Virus record (IMG/VR): IMGVR_UViG_3300009149_000273
Coordinates: 1-24,314 of that record
Reading direction: 5' to 3' (one strand)
Length of the DNA: 24,314 nt
DNA from: a virus
Made by a program: the position numbers and the translations under genes. Of the stretch, positions 7,144 to 24,314 are shown piece after piece. The stretch's first letter is position 1. Each line of letters opens with the position of its first letter. The notes under the pieces are model-generated. The model was given only the letters and a program-made list of their open reading frames with translations, had not been told where the DNA came from and searched no databases.

Positions 7144-7406
7144 GCACGACCGTAGTCGGCTATGATGTGGGCATGACCGACAACGAATCTAAGAAGCTGG
7201 CAGCTCTCCAGCTCTCCGTGTGCCGAGGCAACGTAGCGATGCTGGAACGTAATGCGTTCCTCAAGGAGTTGTACGAAAAGGGTGCGACTCAGCCCGAGCT
7301 GGCCGTAAGACTCAACGAAGTTTCACGCACAGTGGGCGACAAGGAGATCACGCCGGACGCCGTGTATCGAGCAATCAAGCGAATCAACGATCGGATCGAA
7401 GCATGA
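7140..7406 (+). CDS. Small HTH-like protein
   Basis: An 88-residue protein from the ATGA junction at 7140; an internal ATG at 7173 gives 77 residues and lies behind a good -10 (TATGAT at 7161-7166, six bases before the ATG). The C-terminal half, LKELYEKGATQPELAVRLNE then EITPDAVYRAIKRINDRI, has the helix-turn-helix pattern of a small DNA-binding domain. No family is named. It precedes the modification cassette directly and could be made both from operon mRNA and from its own leaderless transcript. The second route is inferred from spacing alone. Confidence 0.55.
   Translation: MSTTVVGYDVGMTDNESKKLAALQLSVCRGNVAMLERNAFLKELYEKGATQPELAVRLNEVSRTVGDKEITPDAVYRAIKRINDRIEA
7161..7172 (+). promoter_or_regulatory. 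Possible leaderless promoter before the internal start at 7173
   Basis: TATGAT followed by six bases (GTGGGC) and ATG, the same geometry as TAAGGT-6-ATG in the repeated operators. No clear -35. It lies inside the start of the upstream-initiated frame, so it would create a second transcript and protein start. Confidence 0.4.
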
Positions 7407-8032
7407 GTGGCTACACAATCAACCAAGAGTTCAACGAAGCAATCCCGCTCGCTGACCTGACCGAGCATCCCGACAACCCGAGGCGAGGCGACGACGTGGC
7501 GGTAGCCGAGTCGGTCCGCGCCAACGGCTTCTACGGTGCGTTGCTCGTTCACAAGGAGACAGGGCACGTCCTGGCTGGTAACACCCGTCTACGTGTCGCA
7601 CGAGATGCGGGCGAGACCTCGATCCCAGGCTTCTGGATCGACTGCGACGACAAGACCGCCAAGCGGATTCTTCTTGCGGACAACCGGGTGTCGGATCTCG
7701 CCTACTACGACGACCAACTTCTGCTCGACATCCTGCGGATGGTGGACGACGAGAACGGCAGCCTGGTCGGCACCGGGTATGACAGTTCTTCGATGGATCT
7801 TCTTTTGCAGGCGGCAGCAGCCGACGAAATTATGGGCGGCGTGCGGCAAGGCGCGACTCCAGAGGACCGTATTGGCGCTTACGCTGCCGCCGATATCCGG
7901 TCGTTGATCTTGCCATACGATCACGACGACTACGAAATTGTTGTGGACAGCCTGATTGCTCTTCGCTCGTCGATGAGCTTGGATACGAACGCCGAAGTGA
8001 TCTTGCGGCTGGTGACAGAAGCCACGGCCTGA
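7403..8032 (+). CDS. ParB/sulfiredoxin-like domain protein
   Basis: A 209-residue protein, ATGA overlap with the gene before. Residues 15-75 are a ParB N-terminal-type domain: IPLADLTEHPDNPRRGDD, AVAESVRANGFYGALLV, and the phosphate-binding box HVLAGNTRLRVARDAG (G59-N-T-R62). There is no ParB HTH or methyltransferase fusion; the remainder is acidic and helical. Family knowledge: stand-alone phage ParB-like proteins occur beside DNA methylation and base-modification genes, and some have nuclease or CTPase-like activity. It opens a run of overlapping genes that includes a TET/JBP-like enzyme, so a role in targeting or regulating DNA modification is a reasonable inference. Confidence 0.78.
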   Translation: MSGYTINQEFNEAIPLADLTEHPDNPRRGDDVAVAESVRANGFYGALLVHKETGHVLAGNTRLRVARDAGETSIPGFWIDCDDKTAKRILLADNRVSDLAYYDDQLLLDILRMVDDENGSLVGTGYDSSSMDLLLQAAAADEIMGGVRQGATPEDRIGAYAAADIRSLILPYDHDDYEIVVDSLIALRSSMSLDTNAEVILRLVTEATA

Positions 8033-9009
8033 TGGAGCTGGCGCAGACAGTCGTTCCGCGCATCGTTCGGAAGCGAACGTTGAGTCCGCTTGTTCGCTGC
8101 ACGTTCGCCGAGCTGGACCAAAGGCTGAAAAACGATTACAATTCGTGCGGCGCGATGGTCCCATACACGCCTTTGAAGCCGTGCGCTAGCTGCGGTCAGC
8201 GGCAGGTTCAAGCAATCGTTTCTTCTCCGCCACCGGGTGCCGAAATTATCGAAGGCAACGCTGCGCTAATTGACGAAGACACAGGAGAGGTTTCCGCTTT
8301 ACAAGTGATCGCTGTACCCGACCTGGCGAACCGTTTGTCTGTCGGCTTTGGTCGAATGAAATGGAATTCGGACAATCTCCATAAAACGAGTGGCGGTGAA
8401 TCGCGACTGTCGGGCATGGTCGTAACCCACCGGACCTTCGGGTACACTCCGCCCGTTCCGCTCCGTAGGCGGTGGGCCTGCGCTTCTTCGAGATTCGACA
8501 TTGAAGAACCAGAAATGTCATCGAAGATCTTGGAATACATCGTGGCCGCTGAGCATGTGTTCCGTACTCAAGCAGGCGACAAGTACGAGCAGACGGCAGC
8601 AGCGGTGCTAGAAAAGATTCCGGCTGCGTGGCGTATCGCTGGTAGCCCTTGGACATCGGGCATCATCAACAACACAGCGGCGCTCCCGTATCACCGAGAC
8701 TCGAACAACATCAAAGGCTCCTGGTCGGCGATGCTGGCGATCCGAAACAACGTCGATGGCGGTCTGCTGCATCTCGCCGACTATGACGTTTGGTTGCGTG
8801 TACCGAACGGCTCGATTTCGATCTTCGATGGACAGTCGGTACTCCACGGTGTCTCGCCGTTCAAGCTGTCTGGCCCGAACGCTTACCGGTACACGATCGT
8901 GTCGTATGCCCGCCGAGGCCTGCGGGTGTGTTGCCCAGATCCGAAGGGCGAGTCCAAGCGTGCTGCGATCGCAGCGACTGTCGCCGACGACAAAAGGCGC
9001 ATCAAGTGA
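8032..9009 (+). CDS. TET/JBP-like 2-oxoglutarate/Fe(II) dioxygenase
   Basis: A 325-residue protein, start sharing one base with the previous stop. The C-terminal half is a double-stranded beta-helix dioxygenase: LPYHRDSNN gives the HxD iron ligands H221 and D223, DGGLLHLADYDVWLRVPNG forms the middle strands, and VLHGVSPF gives the distal ligand H272. AYRYTIVSYARRG gives R286 for the 2-oxoglutarate carboxylate. The 'GG.L.L..Y.......G....FdG...HGV.P....AYRyT..Y' pattern fits the TET/JBP branch, which oxidises 5-methylcytosine or thymine in DNA. A CASCG motif near residue 51 may bind zinc. Neighbours (kinase, aGPT-like transferase, methyltransferase) suggest the hydroxymethyl product is built up further. 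The precise substrate base is unknown. Confidence 0.75.
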   Translation: MELAQTVVPRIVRKRTLSPLVRCTFAELDQRLKNDYNSCGAMVPYTPLKPCASCGQRQVQAIVSSPPPGAEIIEGNAALIDEDTGEVSALQVIAVPDLANRLSVGFGRMKWNSDNLHKTSGGESRLSGMVVTHRTFGYTPPVPLRRRWACASSRFDIEEPEMSSKILEYIVAAEHVFRTQAGDKYEQTAAAVLEKIPAAWRIAGSPWTSGIINNTAALPYHRDSNNIKGSWSAMLAIRNNVDGGLLHLADYDVWLRVPNGSISIFDGQSVLHGVSPFKLSGPNAYRYTIVSYARRGLRVCCPDPKGESKRAAIAATVADDKRRIK

Positions 9010-9989
9010 GTGACGCCGAGACCCACATGCATTTCCTGTCGGAGTTCACCCGGCTGGAACAAGCAGTCGGTGGGCCGGACCCGCACATGAGGATCGTCTG
9101 CGAGGGCTTGGTGCGTGACGTGGCTGACACGCCTGAGCACCGTGCTTGGCTGATCGGCTGCTACCTCGGCCCGTACAACGTCCCGTCCGGTGAGGTCGTT
9201 CTGCATTATTGGCCTGATCCGGCGATGGTCGTTGCCAACCCCGATGAATTCGCGTCATGGGTCGAAAGTGCATGGAAGCAGCTTTCGCTACGCCGTGAGC
9301 GTCGGGCGATCAGGACTCCGAGGAAGTTCACGGCCCACATGCTCGGCTACGCCGAATGGTGTTTGCGGGTCGCCCCAACGATTGGTTCGGCCCGTGACGC
9401 GGACGAGGTGTGGGACCGGCTGATGCTGATTGCCGGGAATGGCCGGTACGCCACGATCAAGTTGTACGAGGCGCTGCACAGGGTCGGCGTGATCGACTAC
9501 CCGTTCCCCGATATCCGGCCGAGCGGCGGCTGGTCACCGAGGGAAATGCTCGCCCGGTTGCACCCTGACACGGCGGCGCATCTGAACGCTGGGAACACGG
9601 CGGTCCTGTGCCAGATTGCGAATGACAAGGCGTCGATCTCCCGCCGTCACTTGTCGGAAAGGCTCGGCGCTCAGGTCGATTGGTACACGATGGAGGTCGT
9701 CTTGTGCGAGTACAAGCAGGCTTGGGACGGAGGCCAGTATCCAGGGCGCGCGCACGATTCGGAGCTGGGCCACGTCCGTAAGGTCACTCCGCTTTGGCCT
9801 GACGTGCCGTTCAAGACTCTCGATATTCGGCGTGAGTTGTTTCCCGAGATCGCCTTGGGGGAGGTGCGTGGCTGGGATGGCCGACGTGAAGGACTAGGTG
9901 GGTGTCCTTCAGCTCACGGGTATATGTGGTCTGACACGTTGTACGACTGGGATGCCACGATCGACCTCGCTGATCCGGTGCCGTGGTGA
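9006..9989 (+). CDS. aGPT-pyrophosphorylase-like (DNA base hypermodification) protein
   Basis: A 327-residue protein from a GTG at 9006 in a GTGA overlap. The helical core contains LIAGNGRYATIKLYEALHRV then IDYPFPDIRPSGGWSPR, resembling the 'GRW.A.K..DLLe.v....p.D' core of alpha-glutamyl/putrescinyl-thymine pyrophosphorylase-like proteins. In hypermodifying phages these displace a (pyro)phosphate from a phosphorylated hydroxymethyl base and attach an amino compound. An earlier segment, HRAWLIGCYLGPYNVPSGEV, also fits. The match is by eye, with no search to confirm it, but being between a TET/JBP-like enzyme and a P-loop kinase strengthens it. The nucleophile it would use cannot be told. Confidence 0.5.
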   Translation: MSDAETHMHFLSEFTRLEQAVGGPDPHMRIVCEGLVRDVADTPEHRAWLIGCYLGPYNVPSGEVVLHYWPDPAMVVANPDEFASWVESAWKQLSLRRERRAIRTPRKFTAHMLGYAEWCLRVAPTIGSARDADEVWDRLMLIAGNGRYATIKLYEALHRVGVIDYPFPDIRPSGGWSPREMLARLHPDTAAHLNAGNTAVLCQIANDKASISRRHLSERLGAQVDWYTMEVVLCEYKQAWDGGQYPGRAHDSELGHVRKVTPLWPDVPFKTLDIRRELFPEIALGEVRGWDGRREGLGGCPSAHGYMWSDTLYDWDATIDLADPVPW

Positions 9990-10639
9990 AGCAGTACAGC
10001 GATAAGCGCAACGGCTGGGCCGAGGGCATGTGGGTTCGGGAAGTCGGGCCTGACACTGATTGTGTGCGCGAGCAGCGGCGGGAGTACGGGTCGCTGGTTT
10101 GGCGCGGTCACCGTGTCCTCGACTTGGGGGCAAATATCGGGGCTTTCGCCTGGTTCGCTTTGATGCACGGGGCGGAGAGGGTGACGTGCGTGGAGCCTGA
10201 CCCTGGGAACATTCAGGTTCTCGACTTGAACCTTCAAGCGTTCTCCGCTTCGATGGTGCGGATCGCTGCTGCGGTGGCGAACGATCCCGGCCAGGTCGAG
10301 TTGTACCTGGCGAACAACGATCAGCATTGGTCGCATTCGACCGTCCCGACGAAAGGTCGTGAGCCTGTGTCGGTCCCGGCCGTAGCGATGGCTCCGCTGT
10401 TGCCTGGTCACACGGCAGTCAAGTGCGATATCGAGGGCGCTGAGTACGGCATCGACTGGTCGTTCCTTGCTGCGTCGGACGTGTCGATGGTGGCGATGGA
10501 GCTTCACTTGAATCGTGGGACGTGGCGGACGGAGGAATGCCCTCGCTTGTTTGAGGTGATGGCGGATGCTGGGTTCACGATCAATGACGAGTTCATCCCA
10601 GAGAAGCATTGGAACATTGTGCGGACATGGCAACGGTAA
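9986..10639 (+). CDS. FkbM-type SAM-dependent methyltransferase
   Basis: A 217-residue protein; GTG at 9986 overlaps the previous stop as GTGA (a GTG one codon earlier is possible). Motif I is VLDLGANIGAFAWFAL near residues 38-53, followed by VTCVEPDPGNIQVLDLNL with the acidic residue that holds the SAM ribose. TAVKCDIEGAEYGIDWSFL near 139-157 is the 'kiDiEGaE' signature of FkbM-like enzymes. Those usually methylate hydroxyl groups on small molecules or sugars. Co-translated with base-modification genes, it may cap the group added to the base, which is inference. Stop is TAA, and a gap of ten bases with AAGGAG follows before the next gene. Confidence 0.78.
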   Translation: MKQYSDKRNGWAEGMWVREVGPDTDCVREQRREYGSLVWRGHRVLDLGANIGAFAWFALMHGAERVTCVEPDPGNIQVLDLNLQAFSASMVRIAAAVANDPGQVELYLANNDQHWSHSTVPTKGREPVSVPAVAMAPLLPGHTAVKCDIEGAEYGIDWSFLAASDVSMVAMELHLNRGTWRTEECPRLFEVMADAGFTINDEFIPEKHWNIVRTWQR

Positions 10640-10649
10640 GGAGATCAAA

Positions 10650-11072
10650 ATGAAAATGTATTACTACGGACATTCGCTCTACACGCGGGGAAAGCCGTTG
10701 GCGTCCCATGTTGAGTGGCTGCGGCAGCATGACTTTATGGTTGTGTCGCTGTCGCCTGCGTACCCGCCGCACCTCGCTGAGCTAGGCGCAAACTCGATTC
10801 ATCAGTCAGTCCCTGATGGGCGGTTGAGTCCTGCGGTGTTGGCCGATTTCTTGCAGGCAAAGGAATGGATCGTGGAGCGCGCCTCTCAGAATCGTCCTGT
10901 TCTGACGCATTGCAACGCAGGCCGCAACCGGGCGGCTTTCCTCACAGGGCTTGCGTATGCGGATTTGGCAGGCGTATCAGGAGCCGAGGCGTTCTCTCAT
11001 GTCCGTCAGATCAGGCCGAACAGCTTGGCAAACGATGACTTCGCTGAGTATTTGATGTCGTACAAGCCGTGA
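10650..11072 (+). CDS. CX5R (dual-specificity/tyrosine-type) phosphatase-like protein
   Basis: A 140-residue protein with AAGGAG six bases upstream of ATG, the clearest ribosome site in this cassette. The catalytic loop is VLTHCNAGRNRAAFLTGL: H87, nucleophile C88, R94, the full HCx5R signature. VPDGRLS (D56) is placed to be the general acid. Length fits a minimal DSP-like fold. Such enzymes remove phosphate from proteins, nucleotides or RNA. Being between a methyltransferase and a kinase in a putative base-modification cassette, it may act on a phosphorylated nucleotide or DNA base rather than on protein. That is inference and would be an unusual pairing. Confidence 0.72.
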   Translation: MKMYYYGHSLYTRGKPLASHVEWLRQHDFMVVSLSPAYPPHLAELGANSIHQSVPDGRLSPAVLADFLQAKEWIVERASQNRPVLTHCNAGRNRAAFLTGLAYADLAGVSGAEAFSHVRQIRPNSLANDDFAEYLMSYKP

Positions 11073-11605
11073 AGTCGCAAGCGATCTACGTCCTGGGTGC
11101 GCCTGGGTCGGGAAAGTCGACGTTGGTGCGGTCGTTGATGTCGTCGCTCGGAATGGGCGAGGAAGCCACTCAGCATGACCGGCCTGTGCCTTACCTCGAT
11201 CATCACAACGGTTGGGTCGAGGTTGGTCGCCGCCGTGAGACTTTCTCGGGGACGGATGCGTTGGCGATGTCGATTATGCCGAAGGCAACTGAGTGGGTGC
11301 GGTCTGACGCTGCTCCTGAGCGGTTGATCGGCGAGGGTGCCCGGTTGGGTTCTGCGAAGTTTCTGCGGGTGGTGCGTGACGAGTACGACTCGTTGGTGGT
11401 GTTGCACTTGACGGGCGACCCGGTGCTGATGTATAGCCGGATGCTGGATCGTGCGGCTGCGTTGGGAACGAAGCCGCAGAATGAGGCGTGGTGGCGTGGC
11501 CGGTTGACGGCGGCGAGGAATGCGGCGGCGGCTTTGGGTGCGGTTTCGTTGGATGTCAGGGAGCCTCCTGATGCTGTGTTAGCTGCGGCTTTGCAAGCTT
11601 TCTAA
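11069..11605 (+). CDS. P-loop kinase, possibly a DNA hydroxymethyl-base kinase
   Basis: A 178-residue protein from GTG at 11069 in a GTGA overlap. Walker A is GAPGSGKST (10-18). RLIGEGARLGSAKFLRVV near 89-106 resembles the substrate-binding 'GEG.RlG' of nucleotide kinase-like proteins. SLVVLHLTGDP forms a beta strand, and the Arg-rich segment YSRMLDRAAALGTKP looks like a lid. Phage P-loop kinases of this size phosphorylate nucleotides or, in hypermodifying phages, hydroxymethylated bases in DNA. The neighbouring dioxygenase and aGPT-like protein favour the latter. Last gene of the cassette; promoter copy B follows 19 bases later. Codons here favour G/T endings more than the genes downstream do. 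Confidence 0.68.
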   Translation: MKSQAIYVLGAPGSGKSTLVRSLMSSLGMGEEATQHDRPVPYLDHHNGWVEVGRRRETFSGTDALAMSIMPKATEWVRSDAAPERLIGEGARLGSAKFLRVVRDEYDSLVVLHLTGDPVLMYSRMLDRAAALGTKPQNEAWWRGRLTAARNAAAALGAVSLDVREPPDAVLAAALQAF

Positions 11606-15097: not shown

Positions 15098-15304
15098 GTG
15101 ATCTACGCCATTCCTATCTTGGCTGTCGCCGCTCTCGCCGCAACAACCATTTCGCTTCGGATCAGCGATGCCGCCGTCACCGCATCTCGCGTCGAAGCGG
15201 CCAGCCGCCGCGCCCTCCTAAGAGAACTTGCAGCCATCCCGCCCCAACTCCCCACCCAAAGTGACAGTACTGCTTACACGGCCACGGAGAGCGTCGAGAA
15301 CTGA
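15098..15304 (+). CDS. Small membrane protein downstream of structured RNA copy 3
   Basis: 68 residues from GTG at 15098, with AAAGGCAG upstream. Residues 2-19 (IYAIPILAVAALAATTIS) form a transmembrane helix or signal anchor. A charged helix (SRVEAASRRALLRELA) and a polar tail follow. No family is recognised. It may be the gene controlled by RNA copy 3. Confidence 0.5.
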   Translation: MIYAIPILAVAALAATTISLRISDAAVTASRVEAASRRALLRELAAIPPQLPTQSDSTAYTATESVEN

Positions 15305-15355
15305 CCTGACGGTCACCGACCTCCACCCGAAACCGAAACGCCGACAGCAGTCGGG

Positions 15356-15368
15356 TATTGTGCGGGGT
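15356..15368 (+). promoter_or_regulatory. Possible leaderless promoter of the VRR-NUC gene
   Basis: TATTGT followed by seven bases and ATG. No clear -35 in the 64-base gap after the previous stop. GCGGGG just before the ATG is too close to be a good ribosome site. Confidence 0.35.
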
Positions 15369-15710
15369 ATGAACGAAGCCGAGTTCGAAAGACAGGTCGT
15401 AGACACCGCAACCATTTTCGGCTGGCGAGCCGTCGGCCACCGACCCATGCGAACAAAACAAGGCTGGGCGACAGGATGGAAATACGACGGTGTCGGCTGG
15501 CCCGACCTCACCCTGATCCACGAAACCGGCAAAATCGTCATCACCGAACTCAAGATCCCGCCAAACAAGCTGTCACCAGAACAAGCCGTATGGCAAACAA
15601 CACTCCGAACATGCGCCATCAACAGCGAAAACCACATCGAATACCACGTCTGGACACCCGACGACTTCAACGACATACTCAGACTGCTATCACACGGCAG
15701 ACAACAATGA
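15369..15710 (+). CDS. VRR-NUC domain nuclease
   Basis: 113 residues, a stand-alone VRR-NUC domain. GVGWPDLTLIHETGKIVITE then LKIPPNKLSPEQAVWQTTLR contains the PD-(D/E)XK-type active site: D46, E60-x-K62 and Q72. An N-terminal E (MNEAEFERQVV) completes the pattern. Family knowledge: VRR-NUC enzymes include FAN1 and phage Holliday-junction or flap nucleases. The placement between small proteins and the small terminase suggests a role in resolving branched DNA before packaging. Codons end mostly in C or A (many ACA, AGA, CTA), unlike the G/T-ending kinase region, which suggests separate origin. ATGA overlap with the next gene. Confidence 0.85.
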   Translation: MNEAEFERQVVDTATIFGWRAVGHRPMRTKQGWATGWKYDGVGWPDLTLIHETGKIVITELKIPPNKLSPEQAVWQTTLRTCAINSENHIEYHVWTPDDFNDILRLLSHGRQQ

Positions 15711-23622: not shown

Positions 23623-23765
23623 GCCTGCTCGAAGATTATGAACCGTCAGGATGTCCGGCGTGCGGCGACCGGGCCTGCAAGTTCCCGCCCGCCTGCCAAG
23701 CCGTCGTCGGACCGGCACCCGAGCGGGGCTACCCGCACCACGATTCTGACAAGGCCACAGCATGA
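23619..23765 (+). CDS. 48-residue Cys-rich protein coupled to the methyltransferase
   Basis: ATGA junctions at both ends. CPACGDRACKFPPACQ near residues 12-27 has four Cys, enough for one zinc site. GYPHHDSDKATA closes the protein. It may be an accessory to the methyltransferase gene that starts within its stop codon. Confidence 0.55.
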   Translation: MSLLEDYEPSGCPACGDRACKFPPACQAVVGPAPERGYPHHDSDKATA

Positions 23766-24314
23766 ACGTCACACTCGAATACCGCGTGGGCGACGTATTC
23801 GACCGTCTCGCCGAGATCCCCGACAGCTCGATCGACCTGATCGTGTCGTCGCCGCCGTTCCTGGCGCTCCGGTCATACCTGCCAGACGATCACCCCGACA
23901 AAGGTAAGGAGATCGGGCAGGAACCGACGCCGGCCGCGTTCATCGACACCCATCTGGCCCTTGCCGCCGAATACGCCCGAGTCCTCGCACCACACGGGAC
24001 GCTCTGTTACGAGATCGGCGACACGTACAGCGGCAGCAACAACGGACCTGATGCGATGAAAAGCGGAGTCGGTTCGCACGATCTGTGGAAGGACGACAGC
24101 GTGCCGCCCAAGCGAGGAGAAGGCTGGCCGCTCGCCAAATCCATGTGCATTATCCCGCACATGTTCACCGGAAGCCTCGCCTACGGCCGCAACCTACTCA
24201 CCGGCGAACCGTCACCCGCCGGATCATGGCGCATCCGAAACGTCATCTGCTGGGCACGCCCAAACCCGCCAGTCGGCGCACTCGGCGACAAGTTCCGGCC
24301 CGCAACGTCCTACA
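23762..24314 (+). CDS. Site-specific DNA methyltransferase (N4-C/N6-A type), 3' end cut
   Basis: At least 184 residues, open at the window edge. LIVSSPPFLALRSYLPDD (27-44) is catalytic motif IV in its SPPF form, used by amino-methyltransferases acting on adenine N6 or cytosine N4. GTLCYEIGDTYSGS (79-92) is the next core strand, and WRIRNVICWARPNPPVG then GDKFRPATSY matches the conserved 'kR...w.KpNp.P....dR...s.E' region. Motif IV first and the SAM site later indicates the beta-type order; the SAM motif would lie beyond the edge. It protects phage DNA or affects regulation. It is not a 5-methylcytosine enzyme by this motif, so it does not supply the usual TET substrate. Confidence 0.85.
   Translation, partial: MNVTLEYRVGDVFDRLAEIPDSSIDLIVSSPPFLALRSYLPDDHPDKGKEIGQEPTPAAFIDTHLALAAEYARVLAPHGTLCYEIGDTYSGSNNGPDAMKSGVGSHDLWKDDSVPPKRGEGWPLAKSMCIIPHMFTGSLAYGRNLLTGEPSPAGSWRIRNVICWARPNPPVGALGDKFRPATSY

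Follow-up and report, generated by a model that had tools for sequence, protein, structure and literature searches.

A candidate phage thymine-hypermodification cassette joining a TET/JBP dioxygenase to a phosphatase-linked DNA transferase

A Six-Gene Cassette in a Virus Record

IMG/VR virus record IMGVR_UViG_3300009149_000273, analyzed here over its full 24,314 bases (the window), carries six plus-strand genes at 7403-11605 that we read as a candidate pathway for modifying thymine in phage DNA. All six reading frames were confirmed. Neighboring genes overlap by a few bases, except for a 10-base gap 5' of the phosphatase gene. A first-pass annotation of this DNA had described six overlapping genes and named their families, and Pfam, PHROG, and TIGR matches bore these names out:

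7403-8032, + strand: ParB-like protein, 209 aa, the first cassette gene (phrog_723 ParB-like, 6e-32)
8032-9009, + strand: TET/JBP Fe(II)/2-oxoglutarate dioxygenase, 325 aa, predicted to convert thymine to 5-hydroxymethyluracil (5hmU) in DNA (PF12851)
9006-9989, + strand: ADDT-family transferase, 327 aa, of a phosphatase-linked clade, ADDT2 (PF18724, "Amino acid:DNA transferase")
9983-10639, + strand: FkbM-family S-adenosylmethionine (SAM) methyltransferase, 218 aa, with the side group as predicted acceptor (PF05050, TIGR01444)
10650-11072, + strand: dual-specificity-type phosphatase (DSP), 140 aa, in an open frame of 10641-11072 (PF00782, HCNAGRNR loop)
11069-11605, + strand: P-loop kinase Ploopntkinase3, 178 aa, a predicted 5hmU DNA kinase (PF18751)

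Does this gene order recur elsewhere? It was recovered in an independent contig (L028/L097/L163), whose ADDT is 66% identical to that of the window, and in a near-identical virus (L002); the arrangement is therefore not due to chance. The ParB_N Pfam match of the first gene (4e-4) falls under the Pfam cut-off. A ParB-like gene lies 5' of TET in most TET loci, including that of a sister phage (L003), where it is 87% identical.

A Transferase Branch with a Linked Phosphatase

The window ADDT matches PF18724 at 1.5e-7 (31.8 bits versus a cut-off of 26.2), and its AlphaFold2 model (predicted local distance difference test, pLDDT, 93.0) is nearest in the PDB to 8z2m/8z2n—PUGT, the gp46 protein of Pseudomonas phage PaMx11—with Z 17.4 over 246 residues and a root mean square deviation of 3.3. 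The next matches are DNA glycosylases at Z ≤ 9.7. A phage-ADDT profile (A2), which includes the window protein itself, matched the 8z2m chain at 1.8e-7 and 25qc at 1.2e-14 among PDB sequences. With a profile score over the curated cut-off and a PUGT-like fold, the protein belongs to the ADDT/5-phosphomethyldeoxyuridine (5-PmdU) transferases. Because the nearest fold is that of a 5-PmdU glycinyltransferase, the acceptor of a fold relative is phosphomethyl-uracil in DNA.

Searching with the ADDT subfamily of the window returned 29 viral loci, of which 25, the window included, were kept after redundancy removal. These form a 100/100 clade, separate from the ADDTs of the phages Tonitrus and Wooper, with a conserved C-terminal region of the YTWSD type. 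All 25 have a DSP-type phosphatase adjacent or fused, nearly always directly 3' of ADDT, while the loci of 80 other ADDT frames contain no phosphatase. Six DSP-less ADDT frames from TET loci fit the ADDT2 profile slightly better; of these, the three that were placed on a tree fall outside the clade, and the frames were not taken as members.

The window phosphatase matches DSPc (PF00782) at 1.6e-10 (41.4 bits versus a cut-off of 33.5) and has the HCx5R loop within that domain, making it a dual-specificity phosphatase; its ATG at 10650 is preceded by a Shine-Dalgarno sequence, AAGGAG. No phage isolate record matched it. Because single-frame fusions join ADDT to DSP in L171 (503 aa) and DSP to kinase in L183 (354 aa), we assign the phosphatase to the pathway. 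The first-pass annotation had considered the phosphatase and the methyltransferase "extra," a view that does not hold: the former is universal in the ADDT2 clade and the latter recurs in TET/ADDT loci.

Two Hydroxymethyl Sources for One Module

The dioxygenase matches Tet_JBP (PF12851) at 3.4e-11, above the cut-off, and its H221, D223, H272, and R286, as picked out in the first-pass annotation, do not vary across 10 phage and 30 IMG/VR TET sequences. Its AlphaFold2 model (pLDDT 91.6) has TET2 (Z 20.2) and NgTET1 (Z 20.1) as its nearest solved structures, with AlkB and FTO trailing at about 14. The HxD...H iron triad and the 2-oxoglutarate-binding Arg within a double-stranded beta-helix make it a TET/JBP enzyme. 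In phrog_6059 and in RefSeq (e.g., NC_011044 gene 2), phage TET/JBP proteins bear the name "queuine tRNA-ribosyltransferase," a probable misannotation.

How is the hydroxymethyl group supplied in other loci of this branch? Of the 25 ADDT2 loci, 8 have TET, 12 have a thymidylate-synthase (TS)-type enzyme, and none has both (Fisher 0.0016, from tests that treat related loci as independent). Whole-record searches agree that TET and a TS-type hydroxymethylase do not occur together. Since the Fisher tests ignore kinship, the safer statement is the tree count: by parsimony, the hydroxymethyl source changed at least three times on the ADDT2 tree. We suggest that in this branch TET stands in for the TS-type hydroxymethylase of its relatives. 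In 11 of the 12 TS-type enzymes the uracil-type Asn is conserved, at the position where dCMP hydroxymethylase has Asp. Because the two sources never co-occur in the clade, the window TET probably makes 5hmU in DNA, a predicted activity.

The kinase switches with the feeder. Ploopntkinase3 is present in 8/8 TET loci and the 5-hydroxymethyldeoxyuridine (5-hmdU) type, PF18748, in 11/12 TS loci; the window kinase occupies the slot that HMUDK_HMUD1 (5-hmdU DNA kinase, PF18748) holds in hydroxymethylase-type relatives. It matches PF18751 at 4.5e-25 and has the P-loop GAPGSGKST. A search of the PDB with HMUDK_hel gave no match. By its position and family we predict a 5hmU DNA kinase, and its phrog_800 name, "terminase small subunit," is a probable misannotation.

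If the substitution of feeders is as we read it, a TET step after replication and a hydroxymethylase acting on nucleotides can replace each other in feeding one DNA-decorating module, and the substrate of actinophage TET enzymes (thymine or 5-methylcytosine, 5mC) becomes directly testable.

A Proposed Pathway on Finished DNA

We propose, at a probability of roughly 0.78, that the six genes form a pathway for hypermodifying thymine in already completed phage DNA; this figure excludes the identity of the side-group donor. TET would oxidize the methyl group of thymine to give 5hmU in finished phage DNA, the P-loop kinase would phosphorylate this to 5-phosphomethyluracil, and ADDT would put a nucleophile in the phosphate's place. 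The phosphatase would strip a phosphate from donor or adduct, and FkbM would (O-)methylate the adduct. The reaction order, the thymine substrate, and all of the side-group chemistry are our reading of the gene identities, folds, motifs, and linkages reported above. The first-pass annotation had put forward an order of oxidation of DNA in place, phosphorylation, substitution, and methylation; this logic, with thymine as the oxidized base and a final tailoring, is well supported by the TET fold, the 5-PmdU-transferase fold, and the replacement of a hydroxymethylase by TET.

Several observations pull the other way. Five of the 25 ADDT2 loci have neither hydroxymethyl source (three of the five being contigs 5 to 33 kb long), and the window itself is a 24-kb fragment. 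The TS-type enzyme of L100 has Asp, the cytosine-type residue. The kinship ignored by the Fisher tests belongs here too, as does the occurrence of Ploopntkinase3 next to TerL in TET-less 7-deazaguanine phages, which makes a packaging role for the kinase possible.

What Is the Side Group?

The same pathway would most plausibly end in an amino acid or amine, such as the glycine of PUGT, with FkbM methylating its carboxyl or amine; we regard this as the leading candidate, at somewhat less than even odds. Inositol or inositol phosphate is a plausible but less likely candidate, about level with all other donors together. The amino-compound substituent of the first-pass annotation thus stands in part: the transferase is of the ADDT/PUGT type, for which amino compounds are the known chemistry, and in this branch inositol is a live alternative.

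The case for inositol begins with myo-inositol-phosphate synthase (MIPS), which is encoded in 9/25 ADDT2 loci, in several directly 5' of ADDT. The MIPS of L098 matches the Mycobacterium tuberculosis inositol-3-phosphate synthase 1gr0 at 7.6e-128 and TIGR03450 at 1.4e-141, a score below that model's cut-off. The window, L096, and L163, all with TET, lie within a 99/100 clade that has four further members (L164, L099, L165, and L187), all of them TET-less and with MIPS. ADDT2 might, on this possible but less likely chemistry, link (phospho)inositol to 5-phosphomethyluracil, after which the phosphatase would free the phosphate and FkbM would produce an O-methyl-inositol. MIPS was found in neither the window nor any TET-bearing ADDT2 record, which counts against inositol and for an amino acid; for the window, the case for inositol therefore depends on its relatives in the tree and on supply by the host. 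That host is likely to be an actinobacterium, because the portal protein matches mainly actinophage records (its top single match is a cyanophage). Among control genomes, MIPS is present in Corynebacterium glutamicum and was not found in Escherichia coli, Bacillus subtilis, or Caulobacter, so inositol phosphate could come from the host if that is an actinobacterium. TET-type phages would then use host inositol and hydroxymethylase-type phages would bring their own MIPS.

An amino-acid donor, for which MIPS would serve some other purpose, has in its favor that the sole characterized relatives by fold and by sequence are glycinyltransferases. Radical SAM/SPASM-type genes lie between MIPS and ADDT2 at L166:3478-4350 and L178:8031-8993 and resemble known amino-acid tailoring. 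Against it stands the phosphatase, always in the ADDT2 branch and never in the 80 frames outside it, often with MIPS beside it. Among the papers searched, none ties inositol to the bases of phage DNA. If the donor proves to be other than an amino acid, possibly inositol, a new class would be added to the known DNA bases, with uses in restriction-enzyme resistance and DNA labeling.

An inositol-3-phosphate synthase gene also lies between folE and the QueC/TGT/QueE 7-deazaguanine genes of Stenotrophomonas phage Moby (L189:8034-9284), where inositol may have another role in DNA modification. The MIPS of Caulobacter phage Cr30 has no annotated 7-deazaguanine DNA-modification neighbor.

What Does the Methyltransferase Methylate?

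FkbM matches PF05050 at 4.3e-7 and TIGR01444 at 3.1e-15, both above cut-off, and with its SAM motif VLDLGANIGAFA it is a member of the FkbM methyltransferases; two phage isolate records matched it. The gene is found in six ADDT2 loci, comes after TET in L029, and follows TET and a TAGT glycosyltransferase in L093. We consider it a capping enzyme that not every locus has, and it may act on either the adduct or the hydroxymethyl group. Direct methylation of the latter, giving a methoxymethyl-pyrimidine in place of a methylated ADDT adduct, would suit L029, where TET and FkbM occur with no kinase or ADDT detected, and the TET-FkbM single-frame fusions at L035:3859-5427 and L040:728-2332, right after a ParB-like gene. 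We nevertheless find it doubtful and favor the adduct, because the window FkbM sits between ADDT and the phosphatase and because TET-less ADDT2 loci (L099, L171, L177, and L183) have FkbM too.

Could the Base Be Cytosine?

Eukaryotic TETs act on 5mC, and the phage TETs studied by Burke and colleagues in 2021 reportedly do as well. By that route the TET would oxidize 5mC and the final base would be a decorated cytosine, and a C5-methyltransferase is indeed present in a few TET records. No C5-cytosine methyltransferase was found in the window, the six-gene contig, or 8 complete actinophages, however, and on these results we set the cytosine route aside as unlikely. The relatives of the kinase and transferase are moreover of the 5hmU/5-PmdU type, and TET alternates with dUMP-type hydroxymethylases. 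This feeder replacement, the kinase switch that goes with it, the conserved Asn of the TS-type enzymes, and the methyltransferase searches are our chief grounds for inferring thymine rather than 5mC.

It is very improbable that the cluster is a patchwork of a terminase small subunit (the kinase, so named in PHROG 800 and RefSeq, and adjoining TerL as noted above) and a host-directed phosphatase, given that the window TerL is 5 kb from the kinase, that one slot swaps between window-type kinases and 5-hmdU DNA kinases, and that fusions join the phosphatase to ADDT2 (L171) and to the kinase (L183). In Mycobacterium phage Quesadilla (L014, 1-4613), a 7-deazaguanine set stands in place of TET between ParB and the same kinase, beside TerL.

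Genomic Context

Terminase, portal, and MuF-type genes lie downstream of the cassette. A VRR-NUC-like nuclease gene (15228-15710; weak match, below cut-off) is located between the cassette and the terminase, and an N6/N4-type DNA methyltransferase-like gene (23762-24313) is truncated at the window end. Megablast of the whole window against phage records gave no DNA-level match, and a PADLOC run returned nothing relevant. ADDT2 had zero matches among bacterial and archaeal genomes (84,980 scanned); no host could therefore be read from prophages.

Comparison with Known Systems

How much of this system is new? The genome annotation of Gordonia phage Wooper lists, in order, ParB, a Tet-like J-binding protein, aGPT-Pplase2, and a 5hmU DNA kinase, and for Rhodococcus phage Tonitrus the ParB-TET-aGPT-Pplase2-kinase set "may be associated" with thymidine hypermodification (PMC11955845, 2025). 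The core ParB-TET-ADDT-kinase operon, by which the window belongs to the Tonitrus type, occurs in Gordonia, Rhodococcus, and Mycobacterium phages. The first 160 loci and records that were inspected include 76 entries with TET, ADDT, and Ploopntkinase3, plus 6 more that have the phosphatase too. The "novel enzyme set" of the first-pass annotation therefore fails for the core. The general idea that hydroxymethyl pyrimidines made by phage TET/JBP enzymes feed complex bases is said to go back to Iyer, Burroughs, and Aravind in 2013.

The differences lie around this core. Tonitrus and Wooper share with the window ParB, the Tet-like enzyme, an ADDT-family aGPT-Pplase2, and the kinase in the same order, but they lack the phosphatase and FkbM and have instead a gene with weak NAD-binding-domain matches; their ADDTs are about 30% identical to that of the window and outside the ADDT2 clade. 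PUGT shares the transferase fold at 13% identity, whereas the window's clade adds the YTWSD-type C-terminal region and the linked phosphatase. The sister phage (L003/L004) has ParB (87% identical), TET (82% identical), and the genes upstream in common with the window, yet a single putative glycosyltransferase (L003:6978-7826) takes the place of ADDT-FkbM-DSP-kinase; we call it putative because its only TAGT match, reached through a relative, is below threshold (0.025), and it was not accepted as a TAGT member. This pair would thus represent the same oxidation with different decoration. What appears new, judged from gene content and phylogeny, is a subtype: a previously unreported, phosphatase-linked ADDT branch, some of whose members also carry MIPS.

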